48,096 nt of DNA from an uncultured Bacilli bacterium (GTDB taxonomy: Bacteria; Bacillota_I; Bacilli_A; RF39; UBA660). The position numbers were made by a program, and so were the translations under genes. Positions within the stretch are counted from its first letter, which is position 1. Each line of letters begins with the position of its first letter. The DNA lies in NCBI GenBank assembly GCA_944355255.1, contig CALVQD010000021.1, forward strand, positions 1 to 48,096, written 5' to 3'. Of the stretch, positions 6,856 to 17,143 are shown piece by piece. The notes under the pieces are model-generated. The model was not told where the DNA came from. It did not search any database and was given only the letters and a program-made list of their open reading frames with translations.

Positions 6856-8532
6856 ATGAGAATGATAAAAGTGAATTATAGAAATATTGAAACCAAAGAA
6901 TTTTTAGAAGATTCATCACTTTTGGAAATAAGTGATAGTTTTAAGAAGTACTATAATTATCCTATCTTAGTTGCAAAGGTGGATAATGATATCATGCCTC
7001 TTTCTGAAAAAATAACAAAGAAGTGTGATATTGACTTTTATGATCGTTCGAGTGATGTTGGAAATGAAATATATGGTCGTAGTTTACAATTTGTTCTTAT
7101 TTTAGCTGTGAAACGATTGTTTGGACGTGATGCAGATATTGTAGTGGAACATTCTATTGATAAAGGTGTTTACTGTGAATTACATGGTGCTTCCCTAGAT
7201 AAACCAATTGTTAGAAAACTTGCATCTGAAATGAAGAAAATTGTGGATGAGAATTTGATTTTTACGAAAGTAAGTGTATCGCGCATCGATGCAATTAAGT
7301 ATTTTAAAGCAAAAAAGAAAATGGATAAAGTACATGTCTTAAAATATATCAGTAATACTTATATTAACTTGTATCGATTAGATGATCTATACGATTATTT
7401 CTATGGTGATCTAGTATATAATACCCAAGTATTAGATGATTTTAAACTAACGTATATCAAAGGAAATGGGTTTGTATTAAGCTATCCAGATGTTTATAAT
7501 CCAGAATGTACACTAGACTATAAACATCATCCAAAATTATTTGATGCTTTCCTAGACTATACCAATTGGGGTAGAACATTAGGAATTAATAATGCCGCAG
7601 ATTTGAACGAACAAGTTTCAACTGGTCGTTATGGTGATCTAATTCGTGTTGCCGAAGCATATTACGATGGACAATTATCTAATATTGCTGAAGAAATATA
7701 CAACAAGAAAAATAATATTCGTTTAATCTTACTTGCTGGACCATCTTCAAGTGGTAAGACAACAACAAGTAAAAAATTACAGATATATTTACAAAGTAAA
7801 GGAATTAAAACTCACCAAATATCGATTGATGATTATTACTTAAACCGTGATAAAACACCATTAGATAAAGATGGAAATCCTGATTTTGAAAGTATTCGTG
7901 CCGTTGATTTAGAACTGTTCAATAAACATCTGATGAAATTATTAGAAGGAGAAAAAGTATTACTTCCGGAATTTAATTTTATCACTGGAAAAAGAGAATT
8001 TAAAAAGAAATGGTTACAACTAGGAGAAGACGATATGATTGTGATAGAAGGATTACATGCCTTAAATGATGAACTTACTATGAGTATTGAAAGAAAGCGT
8101 AAATATCGTATTTATATGAGTCCATTAACACAATTAAATATCGATAATCATAATCGTATTCATACGAGTGATACCAGAAAATTAAGAAGAATCATTCGCG
8201 ATAATAAATACCGTGGTTACTCGGCAGCAGATACACTAGCTATGTGGCCAAAAATTCGTGCTGGAGAAGAAAAAAATATTTTTCCATATCAAGAAGATGT
8301 AGATAAAATAATTAATTCTGCACTCCTTTATGAACTCGGTGTATTAAAAACATATGCAGAGCCACTTCTATTTAGTGTGAAAGAAAGCGATCCAATTTAT
8401 CCCGAAGCGTTGCGTTTAATTAACTTCTTAAGAAACTTTTTACCAATTCCTTCAGAGGAAGTACCAAAAGACAGTGTACTTCGTGAATTTATAGGAAATA
8501 GTTGTTTTGGGGAAAATAATCATTTGTCATGA
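6856..8532 (+). CDS. TGS-domain nucleoside (uridine) kinase family protein
   Basis: A cytoplasmic 558-residue protein. The N-terminal part (about 1-200) resembles the TGS and second additional domains of threonyl-tRNA synthetase. The C-terminal half is a uridine-kinase-like P-loop NTPase with GPSSSGKTT at 295-303 and the downstream IDDYY and EGLHALN segments. This fusion is known in many Bacillota and usually annotated as nucleoside kinase; the natural substrate is not certain. ATG 6856 follows GAGGGA. Its stop overlaps the next start (ATGA), so it is translationally coupled to the truncated GAPDH-like gene. Confidence 0.85.
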   Translation: MRMIKVNYRNIETKEFLEDSSLLEISDSFKKYYNYPILVAKVDNDIMPLSEKITKKCDIDFYDRSSDVGNEIYGRSLQFVLILAVKRLFGRDADIVVEHSIDKGVYCELHGASLDKPIVRKLASEMKKIVDENLIFTKVSVSRIDAIKYFKAKKKMDKVHVLKYISNTYINLYRLDDLYDYFYGDLVYNTQVLDDFKLTYIKGNGFVLSYPDVYNPECTLDYKHHPKLFDAFLDYTNWGRTLGINNAADLNEQVSTGRYGDLIRVAEAYYDGQLSNIAEEIYNKKNNIRLILLAGPSSSGKTTTSKKLQIYLQSKGIKTHQISIDDYYLNRDKTPLDKDGNPDFESIRAVDLELFNKHLMKLLEGEKVLLPEFNFITGKREFKKKWLQLGEDDMIVIEGLHALNDELTMSIERKRKYRIYMSPLTQLNIDNHNRIHTSDTRKLRRIIRDNKYRGYSAADTLAMWPKIRAGEEKNIFPYQEDVDKIINSALLYELGVLKTYAEPLLFSVKESDPIYPEALRLINFLRNFLPIPSEEVPKDSVLREFIGNSCFGENNHLS

Positions 8533-8933
8533 TTAAAGTTGCAATCAACGGTTTTGGAAGAATAGGAAAGTTTGCTTATGATCAACTTCATAATGCTGAA
8601 GGTTATCAAATAGTCGCAATCAATGATTTAAGTAGAATATATCATTTAAAAGATGATTCTGCTGTAATTCTTCATGATAAAGAATTTACATCTCCACTAT
8701 GGAGTGAACTTTCAATTGACGTTTTAATCGATACAACTGGAATCACTACAGAAGAAAAAAAACACAAATATTTAGATATAGGAATCAAACATACTGTATT
8801 TGTACCAGATAAAATGGAGCCAACTTTCATTTGGCAGTCAGTTCCTATAATGAATGAAAAAAACTATGCATCAATAGGAAAAGATAGTATTAAAAAATTA
8901 GAAAAAGTCAAAAAAATAGAAAGAGGAAGATAA
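8529..8933 (+). CDS. Stand-alone GAPDH N-terminal (NAD-binding) domain protein
   Basis: A 134-residue paralogue of the N-terminal part of GAPDH. It keeps NGFGRIG (8-14) and AIND (30-33) of the Rossmann fold and the following beta-alpha units, but lacks a loop of about 20-25 residues, the catalytic Cys and the whole catalytic domain. It cannot be a working GAPDH alone. The frame is intact and coupled on both sides: ATGA overlap with the upstream kinase gene and one base before gap. It could be a decayed duplicate, a regulator, or a binding partner of Gap. Confidence 0.75.
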   Translation: MIKVAINGFGRIGKFAYDQLHNAEGYQIVAINDLSRIYHLKDDSAVILHDKEFTSPLWSELSIDVLIDTTGITTEEKKHKYLDIGIKHTVFVPDKMEPTFIWQSVPIMNEKNYASIGKDSIKKLEKVKKIERGR

Positions 8934-8934
8934 A

Positions 8935-9942
8935 ATGATAAAAGTAGCAATTAATGGATTTGGAAGAATAGGAAGATTAGTATTTCGTTTAATGGAAGAC
9001 GATGCAAACTTTGAAGTAGTCGCAATCAATGATATTACAGAACCAGAACAACTTGCATATTTATTAAAATACGATACTTCTCATAAGAATTATCGTGTTG
9101 ATGAAATTACATATGGAGAAGATTATATCCAAGTAGGAGATCATAAAATTAAAATCTGTAAAGAATTAGATCCTATCAATTTACCATGGAAAGAATTAGA
9201 AATAGATGAAGTATTTGAATGTACTGGTAAATTTGTAAAATACGAAGATGCTCATAAACATATCGAAGCAGGAGCAAAAAAAGTAATTATCTCTGCTCCA
9301 GGTAAAGGAGATATGAAAACAATTGTATACAATGTCAATAGTGATATATTAGATGGTAGTGAAGAAATCATCAGTGCTGCAAGTTGTACAACAAACTGTT
9401 TAGCACCTGTTGCCAAAGTATTAGATGAAGTATTTGGTATTGAAAAAGGATTCATGACAACTGTTCATGCTTATACCAATGATCAAACTATCTTAGATGT
9501 TGCTCATAAAAAAGGAATCAAAGCACGTCGTGGTAGAGCAGGAGCTGCAAACATTATTCCTGCTAGTACAGGAGCAGCAGTAGCTGTTGGAAAAGTACTT
9601 CCAAACTTACTTGGTAAATTAGATGGAATGGCATTCCGTGTACCAGTAACAGATGGATCTGTTGTCGATCTTACAGTAGAATTAAAAAGAGATGTAACTG
9701 TAGAAGAAGTTAATAATGCATTAAAGAATGCTAGCAATGAAACATTAGGATTCACCATGGATCCAATTGTATCAAGTGATATTATCGGTTCTCACTACGG
9801 AAGTTTAGTAGATGGACTTTGTACTACATTAATTGAAGTAGATGGAAAACAAATGGTAAAAGTAGTTGCTTGGTATGACAACGAAATGAGTTACTCAACA
9901 CAAATGGTTAGAACAGCTAAATTATTAGGAACAATGCTATAA
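8935..9942 (+). CDS. gap: Glyceraldehyde-3-phosphate dehydrogenase
   Basis: A cytoplasmic glycolytic enzyme that converts glyceraldehyde 3-phosphate to 1,3-bisphosphoglycerate. The 335 residues carry NGFGRIGR, Asp33 in AIND (points to NAD rather than NADP), catalytic Cys151 in SAASCTTNC and the TVHAYTNDQ segment. It is the third gene of a tightly packed set and is followed by a strong terminator. pgk and tpiA lie 6-10 kb downstream, separated by the peptide-modification island. Confidence 0.97.
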   Translation: MIKVAINGFGRIGRLVFRLMEDDANFEVVAINDITEPEQLAYLLKYDTSHKNYRVDEITYGEDYIQVGDHKIKICKELDPINLPWKELEIDEVFECTGKFVKYEDAHKHIEAGAKKVIISAPGKGDMKTIVYNVNSDILDGSEEIISAASCTTNCLAPVAKVLDEVFGIEKGFMTTVHAYTNDQTILDVAHKKGIKARRGRAGAANIIPASTGAAVAVGKVLPNLLGKLDGMAFRVPVTDGSVVDLTVELKRDVTVEEVNNALKNASNETLGFTMDPIVSSDIIGSHYGSLVDGLCTTLIEVDGKQMVKVVAWYDNEMSYSTQMVRTAKLLGTML

Positions 9943-9954
9943 GCATTGTTTTTT
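9931..9954 (+). terminator. Intrinsic terminator after gap
   Basis: ACAATGCT (9931-9938) pairs with AGCATTGT (9942-9949) and is followed by a T run. It separates gap from the island. Confidence 0.85.
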
Positions 9955-9967
9955 GATATATAAATAC

Positions 9968-9996
9968 TTGTGAAAGAGGAAACAATATGTTATACT
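9968..9996 (+). promoter_or_regulatory. sigma-A-type promoter of the peptide island
   Basis: TTGTGA (9968-9973), 17 bases, TATACT (9991-9996), just 22 bases before the GTG start of the first island gene. Confidence 0.65.
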
Positions 9997-10018
9997 TTCA
10001 GTAAAGAAGGTGAGTAAT

Positions 10019-11665
10019 GTGACTATTTCTGAATTTAAAAAATTTTCAGATAAACTATCACAGTTTTGTACAGCTCCGACCGATACTTGGAAAAAAAGAA
10101 TTTTATTGAAATCTATTTATGACAATCAATTTATGAATATGGTAAATGATATATTAAATCACATTGATAAAATGACAGGTTTAGAGCTTGATCAATTATT
10201 TGAAAAACTAAGAAATTTATCCAATGATGCATTTAAAAAATTTGACGACTCAAAAGACCCGATACAAAAATATAAAAATTATTTGGAAATTGAAGTATAT
10301 TTTGGAGTCATTGAACAGATAGACGAATTATCTAGCTTTTCCGATCGTATTGGTAAAGAAATGTATGAAAAATATGGAAATGAAACAGTTGCGATGATTG
10401 ATAAAGAAAATCCATCCGTATTGACGAGTTTCCAATTTGAAAAATCAAACATGAATTTTGATGATGAATTAATAAAAAAATATTTAGTATTAAAAAAGTG
10501 GCAGGATTTACAGTATATCTATTGTAATGAAGTCTTAGATGGAATTTGCCATTCAGAGCAATTAGAAGAAGAAGTAATTGATTTACTATCTAAAAAATTG
10601 GAAGTGAAAGATAACGCAATTAATTTGTTAGCATTAGATAATCTTCTTTCAGAGTCAATATTAGATATTGATTTAGTTAGTAAATACTATTTAGCGGGAA
10701 TTCAAAAACAATTGGTTCCTATAATTGGAGGGAAAGGCTACGGCCTTGCCATTTTAAATATTTATAGTTCCATACCTAAGACTTATGTAATACCTATTAA
10801 TCATGAATTTCCAACGGATTTTATTTATAATCTTCCTTCTAATATTAAATATTCTGTACGTAGTTCTGCCGATGTAGAAGATGGAAGAGAAAATTCTTTT
10901 GCTGGAATGTTTTCATCATATTTAGATGTCAATCATAAAGACTTAAAAAAATATTACGATAAAGTGAAAGATTCAGTAAACTCAGATAGGGTTCAATCTT
11001 ATATCCAAAGAAAAAAAGCACAACTACCTAAAATGGCAGTAATTATAGAAGAATTTGTAGAACCACAATATTCAGGTGTTTGGCTAGGCCATGATTTAAA
11101 TGACGGTGTTTATGAAATGGTTTTAGGAAATGGCGAGAAATTAGTAAGTGGAGAAGCTACACCATTTCATTTGAGTGGAGATGATGGTAAAAAAATCAAG
11201 AATTATTTCATTGAACTACAAAATACTTTAGAAAAGGTTGCTGATTTTGAATGGTGTGTAATAGATAATAAGATCGTTATGTTACAGTACCGACCTGTCA
11301 CTTCTAAAATTAAATTAAATCCCTCAAAGATGGATGGATATGGTGTAAGTAGTGGTATTGTAAGTGGAGAAATATGTTTTTTGGAATCTTTAGATGATGT
11401 ACAAAATTTTGAAGAAGATAAAATTTTATTAACTTATTTAACTGATCCTGATTGGACTCCCTATATTATGAAATCAAAGGGAGTAGTCACTGCAATAGGT
11501 GGTTATTTATGTCATACTGCTATTATTACACGAGAACTTGGTATTCCATGTGTGACAAATATTGGAATAGAAAAATTGAACCAGTTAAGAAAAGAAAAAG
11601 AAATTACGATAGATGGTGATTTAGGTACAGTGGAATCAAAAAAAAAAGTAAAAGTATTCAAATAA
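10019..11665 (+). CDS. PEP-synthase-like phosphotransferase (ATP-binding plus phosphohistidine domain)
   Basis: A 548-residue member of the PEP synthase/pyruvate phosphate dikinase superfamily. Residues 1-225 match nothing I know. An ATP-grasp nucleotide-binding part follows (about 232-427, with GGKGYGL and SVRSSADVEDG), then the swivelling phosphohistidine domain with catalytic His499 in GGYLCHTAIITRELGIP. The PEP/pyruvate-binding barrel is absent, so it is not a true PEP synthase. Rifampin phosphotransferase is built from the same two domain types. It may phosphorylate a peptide or a small molecule. Start GTG 10019 follows AAGGTGAG. Its last codons contain ten A in a row, and a second frame continues beyond its stop. 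Confidence 0.8.
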   Translation: MTISEFKKFSDKLSQFCTAPTDTWKKRILLKSIYDNQFMNMVNDILNHIDKMTGLELDQLFEKLRNLSNDAFKKFDDSKDPIQKYKNYLEIEVYFGVIEQIDELSSFSDRIGKEMYEKYGNETVAMIDKENPSVLTSFQFEKSNMNFDDELIKKYLVLKKWQDLQYIYCNEVLDGICHSEQLEEEVIDLLSKKLEVKDNAINLLALDNLLSESILDIDLVSKYYLAGIQKQLVPIIGGKGYGLAILNIYSSIPKTYVIPINHEFPTDFIYNLPSNIKYSVRSSADVEDGRENSFAGMFSSYLDVNHKDLKKYYDKVKDSVNSDRVQSYIQRKKAQLPKMAVIIEEFVEPQYSGVWLGHDLNDGVYEMVLGNGEKLVSGEATPFHLSGDDGKKIKNYFIELQNTLEKVADFEWCVIDNKIVMLQYRPVTSKIKLNPSKMDGYGVSSGIVSGEICFLESLDDVQNFEEDKILLTYLTDPDWTPYIMKSKGVVTAIGGYLCHTAIITRELGIPCVTNIGIEKLNQLRKEKEITIDGDLGTVESKKKVKVFK

Positions 11666-11844
11666 GAACTGCTAAAAATAAAGGTTACTATGAGGTGTGG
11701 AATTCGGAAAACGGATTACTTTTGGGGATTACAAAAAAAGTGAAGGATATTTTAGATAAGTGGTTGAATGATGAAAAATTAAACGATAGCGAATTTCTGA
11801 TATTGAATGAGTTTATGAGAATATATATGGAGGAAACAAAATGA
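11620..11844 (+). pseudogene. Open frame in -1 phase to the phosphotransferase gene: frameshift extension or gene remnant
   Basis: An open frame without a convincing start runs from 11620 to a TGA at 11842-11844. It overlaps the end of the phosphotransferase gene in the -1 phase and its stop overlaps the next ATG (11841). From about 11674 it encodes a plausible protein segment (GYYEVWNSENGLLLG..., then a helix ending MRIYMEETK). The A10 run at 11638-11647 would join the two frames by -1 slippage or by one extra A in the mRNA. Either the phosphotransferase carries a C-terminal extension of about 65 residues made by slippage, or this is a former gene or a recent indel. Confidence 0.45.
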
Positions 11845-12101
11845 TATATTATATAATAAATCCGCAAATTGTATTTATGAAAAAAAATGATACATATATT
11901 GTTGATTTGAAAGACGAATATTATTACATTAATGAAATTAGTTATTATATTTTACAGTTTTGCAAACAAAAACATACACTTCAAGAAATTATAGAATATA
12001 TTGTTAATAGCTATGACGCTGATGTCAATCTTGTTGCCAAAGATATGAAAAAAATAGTACAAGAGTTTGCAAATTGTGGTATACTTATCTATAAGAGGTG
12101 A
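11841..12101 (+). CDS. PqqD-like RiPP precursor recognition protein
   Basis: An 86-residue PqqD-family protein. Stand-alone PqqD proteins fold as a RiPP recognition element (RRE) that binds the leader peptide and presents it to a radical SAM enzyme. The sequence shows the winged-helix pattern: short N-terminal strands, DLKDEYYYINEISYYILQFC, then helices with IIEYIVNSYDADVNLVAKDM and a terminal strand GILIYKR. ATG 11841 follows GGAGG at 11829-11833. The candidate precursor peptide begins three bases after its stop, and a SPASM radical SAM gene follows. Confidence 0.82.
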   Translation: MIYYIINPQIVFMKKNDTYIVDLKDEYYYINEISYYILQFCKQKHTLQEIIEYIVNSYDADVNLVAKDMKKIVQEFANCGILIYKR

Positions 12102-12103
12102 TA

Positions 12104-12211
12104 ATGATGAAAAAATATGAAAAACCACTCTTATTTAAATTAGATAAGTCCTTGGGTGGTATGGCTTCTTCTTTCAGTAAATCATACTGTTATGGTGGAG
12201 AGAGTAAATAA
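12104..12211 (+). CDS. Candidate RiPP precursor peptide, 35 aa
   Basis: ATG at 12104 (or the next codon, 12107) follows the ribosome site AAGAGGTG at 12093-12100. The 35-residue peptide has a charged N-terminal half with KYEKP (4-8), typical of leader peptides read by PqqD/RRE proteins. A possible double-glycine site is LGG (17-19). The C-terminal half is rich in Ser, Gly and Tyr, with a single Cys29 in SYCYGG. Its place between the PqqD gene and the radical SAM gene, plus the hairpin directly after its stop, is the classical arrangement for a precursor. With only one Cys it could form at most one intramolecular thioether; Tyr, Ser, Lys and Met side chains are other possible sites. No known class was recognised. 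Confidence 0.78.
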   Translation: MMKKYEKPLLFKLDKSLGGMASSFSKSYCYGGESK

Positions 12212-12240
12212 AAATTCCATTTGATGGAATTTTTATATTA
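12209..12240 (+). terminator. Partial terminator or mRNA-stabilising hairpin after the precursor gene
   Basis: AAAAATTCCA (12210-12219) pairs perfectly with TGGAATTTTT (12225-12234) over a 5-base loop; T12209 and A12235 extend the stem to 11 bp. It lies between the precursor stop and the radical SAM ribosome site. The stem is A/T-rich, so read-through is likely. That would give more precursor than enzyme mRNA. Confidence 0.7.
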
Positions 12241-12253
12241 TAAAGGTGAATTT

Positions 12254-13198
12254 ATGAAAGAAATTTTTGTTTTAAATAGGAATGTAGCGATGGATAATAT
12301 TATATGGGGAAATGTTAGTGGACCAACTTATTGTTATTTAGAAATCACAAGAAGATGCAATTGTCGTTGTCAGTATTGTCAAGTGGGTGACCAAGTTGCT
12401 AAAGATATAGATATACATTTATTTAGAAATATTATTGATAAATTGCATTTAAGCAATACATTTGAAATTCGTTTAGGTGGAGGAGAACCACTATTGTGTC
12501 CAAATATTTCAAGTTTATTAAAGTATATTTATAGTAAAAAAATGTCTGTATGGATATGTACAAATGGTACATTGCTTACAAGGACAATGTGCGAAATGTT
12601 ATTGGCTAATCATGTGGTGGGGGTTCGTATTAGTATTGATTCTTTAGATCATAAAATTCATAACAAAGTTAGAGGGATGCATAATTGTTTGGAACTGGCT
12701 TTAAAAGGTGCTAGCATTGCCACAAAAACCGGATTGCAAGTTGCTATATGTATGACTATAGGAACCCATAATATTGATGAAGTTAAACAAGTGAAAAAAT
12801 ATGCTCATGATAATGGATATCAATTTTATTCACATTATATTATGCCGGTGGGAAAAGGTAAAACATATTTGCAAAATAATAGTTTACCTTCAAACAGTAT
12901 CGTTCAGCAGTTAAATGATATATATGGTGAAAAGAATTGTGTGGCAGTCAATCAATCAATTTCTATTGATATAGACGGATATGTAAGCCCATGTACTTTT
13001 ATAAAGCCAATTATTCATATTAGTAATATTAAAACAAAAAATATACTAATGGATAAATCGTTACAAAAATATACTTATCCAGTCCCTGAAAATCATTGCT
13101 TTGATTGCCAATTTAATAGTACAAAGAGAAATCATAAATGCATTCTGTCATCGATTTGCAAAGGGGGTTGCTGGGCAATTTATGAACAAGATAAATAA
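12254..13198 (+). CDS. SPASM-domain radical SAM peptide maturase
   Basis: A 314-residue radical SAM enzyme. The CxxxCxxC cluster motif is Cys35, Cys39 and Cys42, with an extra Cys37 inside the motif. The SAM-contacting GGGEP is at 75-79. The C-terminal SPASM-type region carries Cys247, Cys282, Cys285, Cys296, Cys302 and Cys306 (CKGGC at the end) for auxiliary clusters. Such enzymes act on RiPP precursors, for example by thioether or carbon-carbon bond formation. ATG 12254 follows AAAGGTGA; earlier in-frame starts lie within the hairpin. It overlaps the next gene by 17 bases. Confidence 0.88.
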   Translation: MKEIFVLNRNVAMDNIIWGNVSGPTYCYLEITRRCNCRCQYCQVGDQVAKDIDIHLFRNIIDKLHLSNTFEIRLGGGEPLLCPNISSLLKYIYSKKMSVWICTNGTLLTRTMCEMLLANHVVGVRISIDSLDHKIHNKVRGMHNCLELALKGASIATKTGLQVAICMTIGTHNIDEVKQVKKYAHDNGYQFYSHYIMPVGKGKTYLQNNSLPSNSIVQQLNDIYGEKNCVAVNQSISIDIDGYVSPCTFIKPIIHISNIKTKNILMDKSLQKYTYPVPENHCFDCQFNSTKRNHKCILSSICKGGCWAIYEQDK

Positions 13199-14633
13199 AA
13201 TATTATTAGTTTATGCAATTAATCATAATCATAATGATTATAGAAAAATCCAAATGCTGGGTATTTCATATTTACAAAGTGCTTTGCATAAAGAAGGGTT
13301 TGATTGTGATTGTTATGACGGAAATATTGGTACTTTGACAGAAGATGAATTAGTAAAATATATAATAGATAAAGCATATGATTTTATAGGTTTTAGTATT
13401 TTGTTTTCTAATACAAAATTATCCTTAAGAATCGCTGAAAGTATAAAAAACATTAATCCTAAAGTAGTTGTTGCGTTTGGCGGAACAAATGCTACTGTCA
13501 TACATAAAGAATTGATTGATAATTATCCATTCATTGATGTTGTTATGAGAGGTGCGGGTGAGGAGATGATAGTTTCTCTTATAAAGGATTATAATAAGCA
13601 CGGGAAGTTTTTGGCGCTATTAAAAAGTTGTAGTTATCAAAATATTAATAACAAAAGAATATATGCGACAGAGATTGCGGAAATAGAAAATTTAGATTCT
13701 TTAGTATATCCTAATAGAGAGCATGCGTTTGAATACTCATATACTATCATTGGAAATGAAAAATATCATAATATTGATATTTCAACAAGTAGAGGATGTC
13801 CATATCAATGTGTGTTTTGTTCTGTTCCCATGTTTCGTTTGAAATGGAAATCACGAAGTGCAAAAAATGTTTTATCCGAAATACAACAGATTTATAATAA
13901 GAAACACAATATATACATTATTTTTATCGATGATAATTTTTTGATTAATGTTGATCGTGCTTTAGAAATAACTAAAGGTATATATTATATGGGTTTAAAA
14001 GATCGTGTAAGGATTCCATTTGTATTTGCAACACGTGCTGATCAATTGTTAAGGTTGTCTAAAGAAACACTACTAAAGTTTAAACAGTATGGATGTTATT
14101 CTATTGAAATTGGAATTGAAAATGGTTCTAATACTGTGTTAAAAAGAATGAAAAAAAATATAACAGTTGAACAAAATGAGCAAATCATAAGTAATTTAGC
14201 GGAAATAGGAATGAATATTGGGATTGACTTTATTTTATTTGATAACAAAACAACTATAAATGAATTGAAAGAAAATTATGATTTTTTTAAAAGAAATGGT
14301 TTGATTGGATATTATCCAGCATTAATTTATAATCAAATGTATCCTTATCCTGGAACAGAATATGCAGAAAAGAATATTGATATGAACCATTATTTCGAAA
14401 ATAAAGATGTAGAATTTGTATATAAGCAGATTGAATTATTTTCAATAGAAATTCAACCGTTTATTGATAAACTTTTGATAAGTCAGAAATTAGATATAAT
14501 AGATGAGATCTGGTTAAAGACATTACCTTATTTTGCATTTGAAAAGTTTTTATTTCATCATTATAGTTTTGAACAATATGAAAAAGAAAATAATATAAAA
14601 GAAAAAATTAGGATAATGGAGGAGAGTGTATGA
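13182..14633 (+). CDS. B12-binding-domain radical SAM protein
   Basis: A 483-residue protein with an N-terminal cobalamin-binding-like Rossmann region (about 5-130, with FGGTNA and GAGEEMI) and a radical SAM core with Cys206, Cys210 and Cys213 in RGCPYQCVFC. A C-terminal helical region follows. B12-radical SAM enzymes commonly methylate unactivated carbons or rearrange rings. The classical DxHxxG B12 ligand motif is not visible, so base-off binding by that route is doubtful. ATG 13182 overlaps the end of the SPASM enzyme gene, and its TGA overlaps the next ATG. It is probably a second tailoring enzyme for the same peptide. Confidence 0.85.
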   Translation: MNKINKILLVYAINHNHNDYRKIQMLGISYLQSALHKEGFDCDCYDGNIGTLTEDELVKYIIDKAYDFIGFSILFSNTKLSLRIAESIKNINPKVVVAFGGTNATVIHKELIDNYPFIDVVMRGAGEEMIVSLIKDYNKHGKFLALLKSCSYQNINNKRIYATEIAEIENLDSLVYPNREHAFEYSYTIIGNEKYHNIDISTSRGCPYQCVFCSVPMFRLKWKSRSAKNVLSEIQQIYNKKHNIYIIFIDDNFLINVDRALEITKGIYYMGLKDRVRIPFVFATRADQLLRLSKETLLKFKQYGCYSIEIGIENGSNTVLKRMKKNITVEQNEQIISNLAEIGMNIGIDFILFDNKTTINELKENYDFFKRNGLIGYYPALIYNQMYPYPGTEYAEKNIDMNHYFENKDVEFVYKQIELFSIEIQPFIDKLLISQKLDIIDEIWLKTLPYFAFEKFLFHHYSFEQYEKENNIKEKIRIMEESV

Positions 14634-15604
14634 CACAATTAGGACAGTGTATTGCGGTGCATAGAGATTGTTGGGAAATTTTATCATCTGGTAAAAAATA
14701 TCGAGCAATTATAAATAATAAGTATGAAAATATAGTATATCCTGTAGTAGGGGATGTTGTTTCTATTAATATTGATTTAAAGAATCAGTCCTGTATTATT
14801 TTGGATATACAACCTCGTACAACAGAATTGTATAGAAATAAAGATGGACATAAAAAAACAATCGCTGCAAATATAGATATTGTTTTTATTACAACCAGTA
14901 TGAATAAAGAATTCAATGTTGGAAAGCTAGAACGACTTTTAATAATGGTAAATCAAAGTGGTGCAAAACCTTGCTTTGTTTTAACAAAAGCGGATATCTG
15001 TACAAATCCAAATATTTATATTGAACAAATAAAAAGACATTTTTCGACAGTTCCATATGTTGTTACATCTTCTTTAAATGAACAAAGTATTGAGTTATTA
15101 AAAACAATGTGGAATCCTGGAGAAACTGCAATTTTTGTGGGAAGTTCTGGAGTAGGAAAAACGACATTAATTAATACTTTGTTGGGATATCAAGTTGGAA
15201 AAGTATATGAAGTTAGGGAAAAGGATGATAAGGGGCGTCACACGACTACTAGTTCTATATATTTAGAATTACCAGATGGACGAAAATTGATAGATTCTCC
15301 TGGAATAAGAAGTGTAGGTCTTCTCAATCTTGATTTTAAAGATATTAATGAAGTTTTTTCATTCATTAGTGAAAATGAAAAAATGTGTCAATATAAAAAT
15401 TGTACGCATACAAATGAAAATGGTTGTAGAATTATCGAGTTATTAAATGAAGGAATAATTGACGAGAATGATTATCGTCGTTACTTAAAAATGAAACGAC
15501 AAATATTATATGATGCACAAAAAAGTGGAATTGATAATCGTGCAGATTGGGAAAAGAGGAGAGATTTACTACAAAAGAAAAAAAAGTATCGCAAAAGAAG
15601 ATAA
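14630..15604 (+). CDS. rsgA: RsgA-like circularly permuted GTPase
   Basis: RsgA (YjeQ/YloQ) is a GTPase that matures and checks the small ribosomal subunit. The 324 residues show an OB-fold-like N-terminus (1-65) and permuted G motifs: G4 TKAD at 119-122 before G1 GSSGVGKT at 171-178 and G3 DSPG at 222-225. A zinc knuckle follows with Cys253, Cys258, His260 and Cys266. The basic C-terminus resembles a ribosome-binding tail. All key motifs are intact. Housekeeping rsgA usually sits elsewhere; here it is coupled by an ATGA overlap to a peptide-modification gene. It may be a second copy used for immunity, or simply the only copy relocated. Confidence 0.9.
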   Translation: MTQLGQCIAVHRDCWEILSSGKKYRAIINNKYENIVYPVVGDVVSINIDLKNQSCIILDIQPRTTELYRNKDGHKKTIAANIDIVFITTSMNKEFNVGKLERLLIMVNQSGAKPCFVLTKADICTNPNIYIEQIKRHFSTVPYVVTSSLNEQSIELLKTMWNPGETAIFVGSSGVGKTTLINTLLGYQVGKVYEVREKDDKGRHTTTSSIYLELPDGRKLIDSPGIRSVGLLNLDFKDINEVFSFISENEKMCQYKNCTHTNENGCRIIELLNEGIIDENDYRRYLKMKRQILYDAQKSGIDNRADWEKRRDLLQKKKKYRKRR

Positions 15605-15656
15605 CAGTATCGACATAGTATATGTTCTGTTGTTGTAAATAGTCTATACATTTTAG

Positions 15657-15842
15657 CCTTTTGAATTTCTAGTAAAAGATCATACTGTTATTATTGTTGC
15701 ACATCGTCTATCTACCATTGTAGATGCTGACGAAATTCATGTTATTCAACAGGGAAATGATGTTGCATGTGGCACTCATGAAGAACTTTTGAAAACAAGT
15801 GATGTATATCAAAAGTTATATGAAACAGAATCTTCAAACTAA
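15657..15842 (+). pseudogene. Remnant of an ABC exporter (end of the nucleotide-binding domain)
   Basis: An open frame after TAG at 15654 encodes the last 61 residues of an ABC exporter. It contains HTVIIVAHRLSTI (H-loop), then VDADEIHVIQQG and a normal C-terminus. The membrane domain, Walker A, signature and Walker B parts are missing, and there is no start codon or ribosome site. A good terminator follows directly. It is the 3' end of a deleted gene, possibly the former exporter of the peptide or a former neighbour of pgk. Confidence 0.85.
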
Positions 15843-15865
15843 GGAAAGTTTTCTTTCCTTTTTTC
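15841..15865 (+). terminator. Intrinsic terminator at the end of the island
   Basis: AAGGAAAG and CTTTCCTT arms (15841-15848, 15853-15860) around TTTT, with a T-rich tail. Confidence 0.8.
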
Positions 15866-15964: not shown

Positions 15965-17143
15965 ATGAAAAAGACGATTCGAGATTATGACTTATTTGAG
16001 AAAAGAGTGTTAATTCGTTGTGATTTTAATGTGCCAATGAAAGATGGTGTGATTACTGATGATTATCGTATTCAATCTAGTTTAGATACAATTCGATATG
16101 CATTAGATCATCATGCGAAAGTAATATTACTTTCACATTTAGGAAGAATAAAAGAAGAAAGTGATAAAAAGAAGAATGATTTAAAACCAGTAGCAGTTCG
16201 TCTTAGCGAATTGTTAGGTAAAACAGTAACATTTATACCAGAAACAAGAGGACAACAGTTGGAACAAGCTGTTATGGAAATGAATTCAGGAGATGTTATT
16301 TTAATTCAAAATACAAGATATGAAGATTTAGATGGTAAAAAAGAAAGTAAGAATGATCCTGAATTAGGACGTTATTGGGCCTCTTTGGGAGATATTTATA
16401 TTAATGATGCCTTTGGTACTTGTCATCGTGAACATGCTTCTAATGTTGGAATTGCGACTCATTTACCAAGTGGAATTGGCTTTTTAGTAGAAAAAGAAAT
16501 AGAAAATATAGAAAATGTGGTAGCTCATCCAGAAAGACCATTTACAGTGATTTTAGGGGGAGCAAAAGTTAGTGATAAAATAAAAGTCATAGAAAACTTA
16601 GTGACAAAAGCAGATCATATTTTGATTGGTGGTGGAATGGCTTATACATTTTTAAAAGCCCAAGGCTTTGAAATTGGAAAGTCATTGTTAGATGAAGAGT
16701 CTATTGCATTTTGTCAATCCATGTTATCTAAGTATCCAGATAAGATTGTATTACCAAAAGATCATTATGTATCTGAGTCAACAGATGGACAAGGATTATT
16801 AAAAACAGTTTCAGAAACAGACGCAAAAGATATGGGATTAGATATTGGAGATGAAACGATTCAAATGTTTTCAGAAATATTAAAACAAAGTCATACTGTG
16901 ATTTGGAATGGACCGGTTGGTTTATTTGAAAATCCATCATTTCAAAAAGGAACAGTTGCACTTTGTGAAGCAATGAAAGAAGTTTCTGGTAAGACAATTG
17001 TCGGTGGTGGAGATACTGCTAGTGCAGTAAAAAAACTAGGATATGAAGATGTTTTTACTCATATTTCAACTGGAGGAGGAGCCTCTTTAGAATTATTGGA
17101 AGGAAAGATATTACCAGGAATTGCTTGTATTTCAGATAAATAG
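15965..17143 (+). CDS. pgk: Phosphoglycerate kinase
   Basis: A cytoplasmic glycolytic kinase that makes ATP and 3-phosphoglycerate from 1,3-bisphosphoglycerate. The 392 residues hold the substrate loop RCDFNVP (about 19-25), the hinge-region GGAKVSDKI, GGGMAYTFLKAQG and the C-terminal GGGDTASAVKKLG. Length is normal. It starts a four-gene run with a flippase-like protein, a glycosyltransferase and tpiA. Its usual upstream partner gap lies on the far side of the peptide island. Confidence 0.97.
   Translation: MKKTIRDYDLFEKRVLIRCDFNVPMKDGVITDDYRIQSSLDTIRYALDHHAKVILLSHLGRIKEESDKKKNDLKPVAVRLSELLGKTVTFIPETRGQQLEQAVMEMNSGDVILIQNTRYEDLDGKKESKNDPELGRYWASLGDIYINDAFGTCHREHASNVGIATHLPSGIGFLVEKEIENIENVVAHPERPFTVILGGAKVSDKIKVIENLVTKADHILIGGGMAYTFLKAQGFEIGKSLLDEESIAFCQSMLSKYPDKIVLPKDHYVSESTDGQGLLKTVSETDAKDMGLDIGDETIQMFSEILKQSHTVIWNGPVGLFENPSFQKGTVALCEAMKEVSGKTIVGGGDTASAVKKLGYEDVFTHISTGGGASLELLEGKILPGIACISDK

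Follow-up and report, generated by a model that had tools for sequence, protein, structure and literature searches.

A horizontally acquired block with a phosphohistidine dikinase and a putative peptide modification locus in an uncultured gut Bacilli bacterium

What could be made by a set of genes in which a phosphotransferase and a ribosomal GTPase stand beside enzymes of peptide maturation? This question is raised by an island in a 48,096-nucleotide stretch of DNA from an uncultured Bacilli bacterium (hereafter the window; GenBank contig CALVQD010000021.1, contig C21 of its genome). The host lives in the gut, and its genome is small (1.19 Mb in 102 contigs, 91% complete). The original prediction had placed six genes here, encoding a phosphotransferase, a PqqD protein, a short peptide, a SPASM radical S-adenosylmethionine (SAM) enzyme, a B12-binding radical SAM enzyme, and the GTPase RsgA, and had read them as one unit making a ribosomally synthesized and post-translationally modified peptide (RiPP). 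All six open reading frames (ORFs) are present at the predicted positions, and Pfam agrees with the identities of all but the short peptide. On balance, the island is probably a horizontally acquired RiPP biosynthesis operon that works by the mechanism proposed below. Its sequence is best read as a RiPP locus of the radical-SAM kind with a phosphohistidine dikinase that may act as a maturation enzyme, because relatives of this dikinase are found repeatedly in other RiPP-like loci and because a segment resembling a RiPP recognition element (RRE) follows it.

The limits of the island emerge from comparison with two genomes of the same genus, L110 and L112. The island genes are flanked in the window by gap (8935-9942) and pgk (15965-17143), an interval that in L110 and L112 instead holds a full ATP-binding cassette (ABC) exporter gene of 582-594 aa and a small gene of 111-121 aa. 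Window DNA matches these genomes at 90-93% until homology ends at 9954-9955, directly after the gap terminator, and the match restarts at 15672, within the final 56 codons of the ABC gene. Given these breaks at 9955/9956 and 15671/15672, the block at 9956-15671 (+ strand, like the island features and the ABC tail described below) took the place of the larger part of a resident ABC exporter gene. The dikinase gene was not found in any of four congeners, and the gain of the block by horizontal acquisition, as one unit of ~5.7 kb, is well supported. The claim that the genes form a unit thus stands, and the homology limits define that unit better than guesses about promoters and terminators do. 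The promoter proposed at 9968-9996 does exist as a site (TTGTGA-17-TATACT, the second hexamer being preceded by TG) and is the first feature inside the left end of the block, yet matches of this kind are not more frequent than expected by chance (54, versus 45.5 ± 7.9 in shuffled sequence). At the other end, the RsgA gene stops 67 bp short of the boundary.

Within the block, the genes are tightly coupled, with ATGA overlaps at 11841 and 14630, a 17-bp overlap between the two radical SAM genes, and a 2-bp gap between the PqqD and peptide genes. Codon usage backs every island reading frame, both small ones included. Every large ORF is full length, retains its catalytic motifs, and has genome-like codon usage (scores of 0.0 to 0.24). 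The island is not a chance assembly, as the whole set sits in one block that genomes of the same genus lack at this position.

The RiPP assignment is carried by three adjacent genes. A PqqD-family peptide chaperone of 86 aa, a discrete RRE, is encoded at 11841-12101 (PF05402, 40.7 bits against a cut-off of 23.4) and occurs once in the host genome. It is followed at 12104-12211 by a candidate precursor peptide of 35 aa, MMKKYEKPLLFKLDKSLGGMASSFSKSYCYGGESK, starting at ATG 12104 or 12107. A near-perfect Shine-Dalgarno sequence (AGAGGTGAT) precedes this ORF, and its codon score is 0.16, compared to -0.8 and -1.7 in the other frames. A stem-loop at 12204-12241, with a perfect 13-bp core at 12208-12236, overlaps the peptide stop codon (-12.2 kcal/mol, z -2.9) and is likely an attenuator or 3' stabiliser; it qualifies the earlier statement that the unit has no strong terminator before 15841, being too A/T-rich for a terminator scan. 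Ribosome-binding site, codon usage, and stem-loop together point to a coding precursor ORF beside the enzymes. The putative leader, MKKYEKPLLFKLDKSLGG, has a YxxP pattern, which we take to be typical of RRE-bound leaders, and then LGG; the core, MASSFSKSYCYGGESK, has a single Cys flanked by two Tyr. Among known families, DUF5972 matches the peptide below its cut-off (E 0.017; 15.1 versus 22.6 bits), and a literature search on DUF5972 gave nothing. The third gene, at 12254-13198, follows a ribosome-binding site (AAAGGTGA) and encodes a SPASM radical SAM enzyme of 314 aa, with PF04055 and PF13186 over cut-off, a CX3CX2C motif, and seven C-terminal Cys. The RiPP-type character claimed for the locus is therefore upheld by PqqD, the SPASM enzyme, an apparently coding peptide ORF with a YxxP leader and a stem-loop behind it, and a probable second RRE.

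A further radical SAM enzyme is encoded at 13182-14633. This B12-binding protein of 483 aa carries CPYQCVFC, with PF02310 and PF04055 over cut-off. It matches the NCBIfam BchE, HpnJ, and RiPP C-methyltransferase families, in all cases below their cut-offs; for TIGR03975 (rSAM_ocin_1, a RiPP C-methyltransferase) the score is 116.2 bits against a required 281.85. Its nearest relatives (32-34% identity) sit beside a second radical SAM gene and a gene for an inorganic pyrophosphatase, an arrangement that recurs in several gut Bacilli (L035-L039) and, together with an AMP-binding enzyme, on an Enterococcus plasmid, NZ_CP040462.1 (L042).

The first gene of the island, at 10010-11665, encodes a dikinase of 551 aa of the type found in pyruvate phosphate dikinase (PPDK) and rifampin phosphotransferase (RPH), with a GTG start and the initial residues MSNV common to L044 and L046. 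Its domains, by alignment and model, are a helical N-terminal region (residues 1-230), an ATP-grasp domain (235-435), and a phosphohistidine swivel domain (440-545) with His502. Both PPDK_N (PF01326) and the PEP-utilizers mobile domain (PF00391) score over cut-off, and in an alignment of 20 family members the lysine of GGK, the arginine of RSSA, and swivel histidine H502 are all invariant. The predicted structure (mean predicted local distance difference test [pLDDT] 87) matches PPDK and RPH in Foldseek; the helical domain of ~230 aa has no PDB match by sequence. The nearest solved relatives by sequence are the rifampin phosphotransferases, which are phosphohistidine dikinases of a small molecule and in which Lys22, Arg117, and His825 matter (PMC4844700); the counterparts here, equated by motif, are K242, R284, and H502. 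A related dikinase, HpeHI, phosphorylates phenolic hydroxyls (PMC12167813), so Tyr is a fair candidate substrate, with Ser as an alternative. The gene had been called PEP-synthase-like. It does encode a phosphotransferase, but phosphoenolpyruvate (PEP) synthase was rejected as its function: the equivalog score is far too low (120.9 bits versus a cut-off of 739.75), and no PEP-binding C-terminal domain was found with Pfam.

Between the dikinase and PqqD genes lies a 175-bp gap, which is filled by a seventh coding segment in addition to the six genes predicted. The open frame at 11620-11844 has a codon score of 0.0, whereas the two alternative frames score -1.27 and -1.24. Its stop codon shares the sequence ATGA with the start codon of PqqD. 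The codon score and the probability of such an open frame (~0.0025) led us to reject a chance frame. A single-sequence AlphaFold model of 11641-11841 (pLDDT 84) has the order beta-beta-beta-alpha-alpha. Among 350,542 PDB chains, Foldseek placed the lasso peptide RRE TbiB1 first, and further matches included CteB, a sactipeptide enzyme with an RRE, and 6jx3, a lasso B1 protein, each match reaching only E 0.2-0.9. A strict RRE has three helices (PMC12710340) and the model has two, so we name the segment RRE-like only; it does not match PqqD in sequence comparison. The only usual start codon of the frame is GTG 11695, and the first predicted strand lies upstream of it, just behind an A10 run (11638-11647). 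No homopolymer in the window is longer than this run, and the coding character moves there from the dikinase frame to the RRE-like frame. The simplest reading, and a likely one, is -1 slippage at A10, which would fuse the dikinase and the RRE-like segment into one protein of 617 aa.

The last gene, at 14630-15604, encodes RsgA2, a second RsgA GTPase of 324 aa with an OB fold, a permuted GTPase domain, and a zinc motif. It scores 157.1 bits against a cut-off of 100 for TIGR00157, matches Pfam RsgA_GTPase, and has intact GSSGVGKTT, TKAD, DSPG, and CX4CXHX5C motifs. Its start overlaps the B12 gene as ATGA, and this overlap, together with its position inside the block, places it in the operon. The host genome has two full-scoring RsgA proteins, the housekeeping copy being on contig C2. 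RsgA2 is 32-34% identical to plasmid RsgA paralogues, which occur in unrelated gene settings, and a scan of 278 genomes of the order gave no match at its own level. Target protection, or immunity, is our guess as to its role.

Where else does this dikinase occur? The dikinase alignment, run against 84,980 species genomes, identified 21 relatives that also match the family-specific N-terminal domain; the family is rare, and those relatives that bear a name belong for the most part to uncultured Bacilli and Clostridia of the gut. About 12 of them, in metagenome-assembled genomes, sit in a different RiPP-like locus, a cassette that encodes, besides the dikinase, a YcaO protein (PF02624 in three scanned loci), a pyridoxal phosphate (PLP) aminotransferase, and three radical SAM enzymes; two of these are SPASM enzymes, one of which carries a PqqD-like domain at its N terminus. 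That N-terminal domain matches the window PqqD at an hhalign E value of 5.5e-5. Ten cassette loci encode a short peptide with [KR]EL[KR]P[ED][MI]TQCR, and five (L046, L047, L062, L048, and L136) a second peptide ending GGNYCSDxC or GGNYCQD. The LGG...SYC of the window peptide resembles these GGNYC ends; GG..[NS]YC, a pattern picked post hoc, appears in 0.16% of shuffles.

The cassette is conserved, RiPP-like, and apparently undescribed, its peptide carrying ELKPEMTQCRIVQVD and some members adding the second peptide ending GGNYCSDxC; members are L046, L047/L062, L049, L050, L052, L053, L056, L057, L059, and L136, and L048 and L051 in part. A close kinship between the window B12 enzyme and that of the cassette was considered and rejected, as its best relatives lie in another locus type. 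Near the dikinase locus of L136, a class II bacteriocin-like peptide (MLVERKDKVDKLNNNQLNNIVGGSISLTG...) is encoded at 10460-10648 beside an ABC transporter-like gene. L033 and L034 have a different dikinase of 646-651 aa, related only in its C-terminal half, in a conserved set of ~5 genes.

From these components we propose the following pathway. The leader MKKYEKPLLFKLDKSLGG would be held by PqqD and by the second, RRE-like domain joined to the dikinase via A10 slippage. The SPASM enzyme may oxidise or cross-link the core MASSFSKSYCYGGESK, most likely at its Tyr-Cys region, and the cobalamin radical SAM enzyme would alkylate the core or make a second radical change. The dikinase would pass a phosphate from ATP through the phosphohistidine at His502 to a peptide hydroxyl, on Tyr or Ser, as a final group or for activation. 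RsgA2 duplicates a GTPase of the small subunit, and its most likely role is to make the cell tolerant of a ribosome-acting product. Leader removal and export, if any, would fall to proteins encoded elsewhere. A bolder version, that this is a new RiPP class in which an RRE-recruited dikinase, fused by slippage, phosphorylates core Tyr or Ser alongside radical cross-linking and cobalamin-dependent alkylation, with a duplicate RsgA protecting the maker's 30S subunit, is tentative, and we think it unlikely in its entirety.

Several observations weigh against a RiPP operon built around the dikinase. A Pfam scan of the block genes found no exporter and no protease or peptidase. The dikinase stands without a visible RiPP gene in L043, L045, L055, L058, and L060, and the relative closest to the window dikinase (55-80% identity over the best pieces) is a lone pseudogene in another Bacilli genome (L063:8829-10049), with the rest of the island absent beside it; given these stand-alone and decayed copies, the dikinase may have another use. 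The two radical SAM enzymes of the window, B12 and SPASM, show no particular closeness to their counterparts in the YcaO cassette. Co-occurrence of the peptide with its enzymes had been suggested as a check, and no second genome with the same set was found in the dikinase scan of 84,980 species genomes, in scans with the single B12 protein against genomes and viruses, with the SPASM enzyme against 395 genomes of the class, with the B12 enzyme against 392 genomes of the phylum, or in the RsgA2 scan of the order; plasmid and phage searches gave nothing relevant. A precursor conserved beside homologous enzymes was likewise not encountered elsewhere, the only likeness being LGG...[NS]YC in peptides of L046, L047, L048, and L136. 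The check succeeded in part, in that ~12 genomes place the dikinase family beside other short Cys peptides, PqqD-like domains, and radical SAM enzymes.

How, then, do other explanations compare? Since the block lacks an exporter and a protease, an intracellular product is a serious rival: the island could make a peptide-derived cofactor like pyrroloquinoline quinone (PQQ) or mycofactocin rather than a secreted antimicrobial, with RsgA2 unrelated to immunity. PqqD plus a SPASM enzyme is a cofactor signature too, the block also lacks an immunity membrane protein, and a Tyr lies close to the core C terminus. Yet the block has no dehydrogenase or other cofactor user, a second ribosomal GTPase would be odd in a cofactor locus, and the sporadic distribution better suits warfare or a niche function, all of which makes this account distinctly unlikely in our judgment. 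Alternatively, RsgA2, and perhaps the dikinase, could be passengers on a functional unit of peptide, PqqD, and radical SAM enzymes. RsgA paralogues are common accessory genes of plasmids, and stand-alone dikinases exist; we nonetheless regard this as somewhat unlikely, with RsgA2 tied to the B12 gene inside the same acquired block, and with the dikinase accompanied by RiPP-like loci of another type in the majority of genomes that carry it, and here by an RRE-like segment.

The frame change at A10 admits two further explanations. The run could be an assembly error or a phase-variable tract, the gene then being a single 617-aa dikinase-RRE fusion switched on or off by tract length. The smooth shift of coding character at the longest homopolymer in the window favors this idea, while the dikinase stops within a few residues of the ends of its relatives, which lack such an extension; we consider it quite possible, though we lean the other way. 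The same frame change, the lack of an exporter, and the decayed relative in L063 could instead mean that the island is decaying and has no present function, which is highly improbable for a set of genes whose large ORFs are all intact.

Beyond the right boundary, positions 15672-15842 do not belong to the island. They hold what the acquisition left of the resident ABC exporter gene, its final 56 codons, with 90% DNA identity to the same part of the intact gene (594 aa) in L110. An ABC remnant at 15657-15842 was considered as an island exporter and rejected, since it is the end of a resident gene that L110 and L112 retain in full. The terminator predicted at 15841 exists (15841-15860), but it is that of the resident ABC gene, left over with the tail, and lies outside the island. 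In L110 (4283-4445) and L112 (8497-8708), the leader region of the exporter gene combines a short ORF (MIQRLYEKQF...) with a hairpin resembling a terminator, a layout like that of attenuation-controlled genes; this region is absent from the window. Directly upstream of gap, the window has a truncated GAPDH-like ORF of 134 aa (8529-8933), and a diverging short ORF occupies the same spot in L110 and L112 (38-45% identity).

If the dikinase modifies peptides, it would add to RiPP chemistry and would explain a dikinase family that has an unmatched N-terminal domain and that, in gut Bacilli and Clostridia, accompanies another and larger locus with YcaO. Genome mining can use the family as a handle for loci of both types, and a second RsgA in such a locus would point to the small ribosomal subunit as the target.

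How does the island relate to known systems? The original view that its gene combination is not known from described classes is supported: we found no described peptide-modification system with this combination in the searched literature and families, and no description of a PPDK/RPH-type dikinase as a RiPP tailoring enzyme in that literature. Pfam matches of the block include no lasso cyclase with leader peptidase and no Lan synthetase, and the sactipeptide synthase equivalogs are missed (AlbA, 70.8 versus 850 bits; SkfB, 61.8 versus 300). Like PQQ, mycofactocin, and other PqqD-plus-SPASM loci, the window has a discrete PqqD-family RRE, a SPASM enzyme, and an adjacent short precursor; unlike them, it falls far below the NCBIfam cut-offs (PqqE, 54.7 versus 381 bits; mycofactocin maturase, 81.7 versus 265; PqqD, 21.7 versus 46) and adds a B12 radical SAM enzyme, a dikinase, and RsgA. 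With the YcaO cassette (L046-L059, L136) it shares the same dikinase family (~40% identity, full length), a PqqD-like domain, a SPASM and another radical SAM enzyme, and short Cys peptides, whereas the cassette has its PqqD-like domain fused to a second SPASM enzyme, a YcaO protein, a PLP aminotransferase, other peptides, and neither RsgA nor a discrete PqqD. The dikinase keeps the ATP-grasp and phosphohistidine swivel domains and the catalytic Lys, Arg, and His of RPH-Lm (5FBS, 5HV1) and PPDK/PEP synthase. It differs from them in that its swivel directly follows the ATP-grasp domain with no rifampin- or PEP-binding domain, and in its own helical N terminus, the RRE-like segment behind it, and its RiPP context. 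Finally, RsgA2 has the full domain set of the small-subunit GTPase RsgA/YjeQ, yet it is an additional copy that shares only 27% identity with the housekeeping RsgA of the host and lies in a RiPP-like block.

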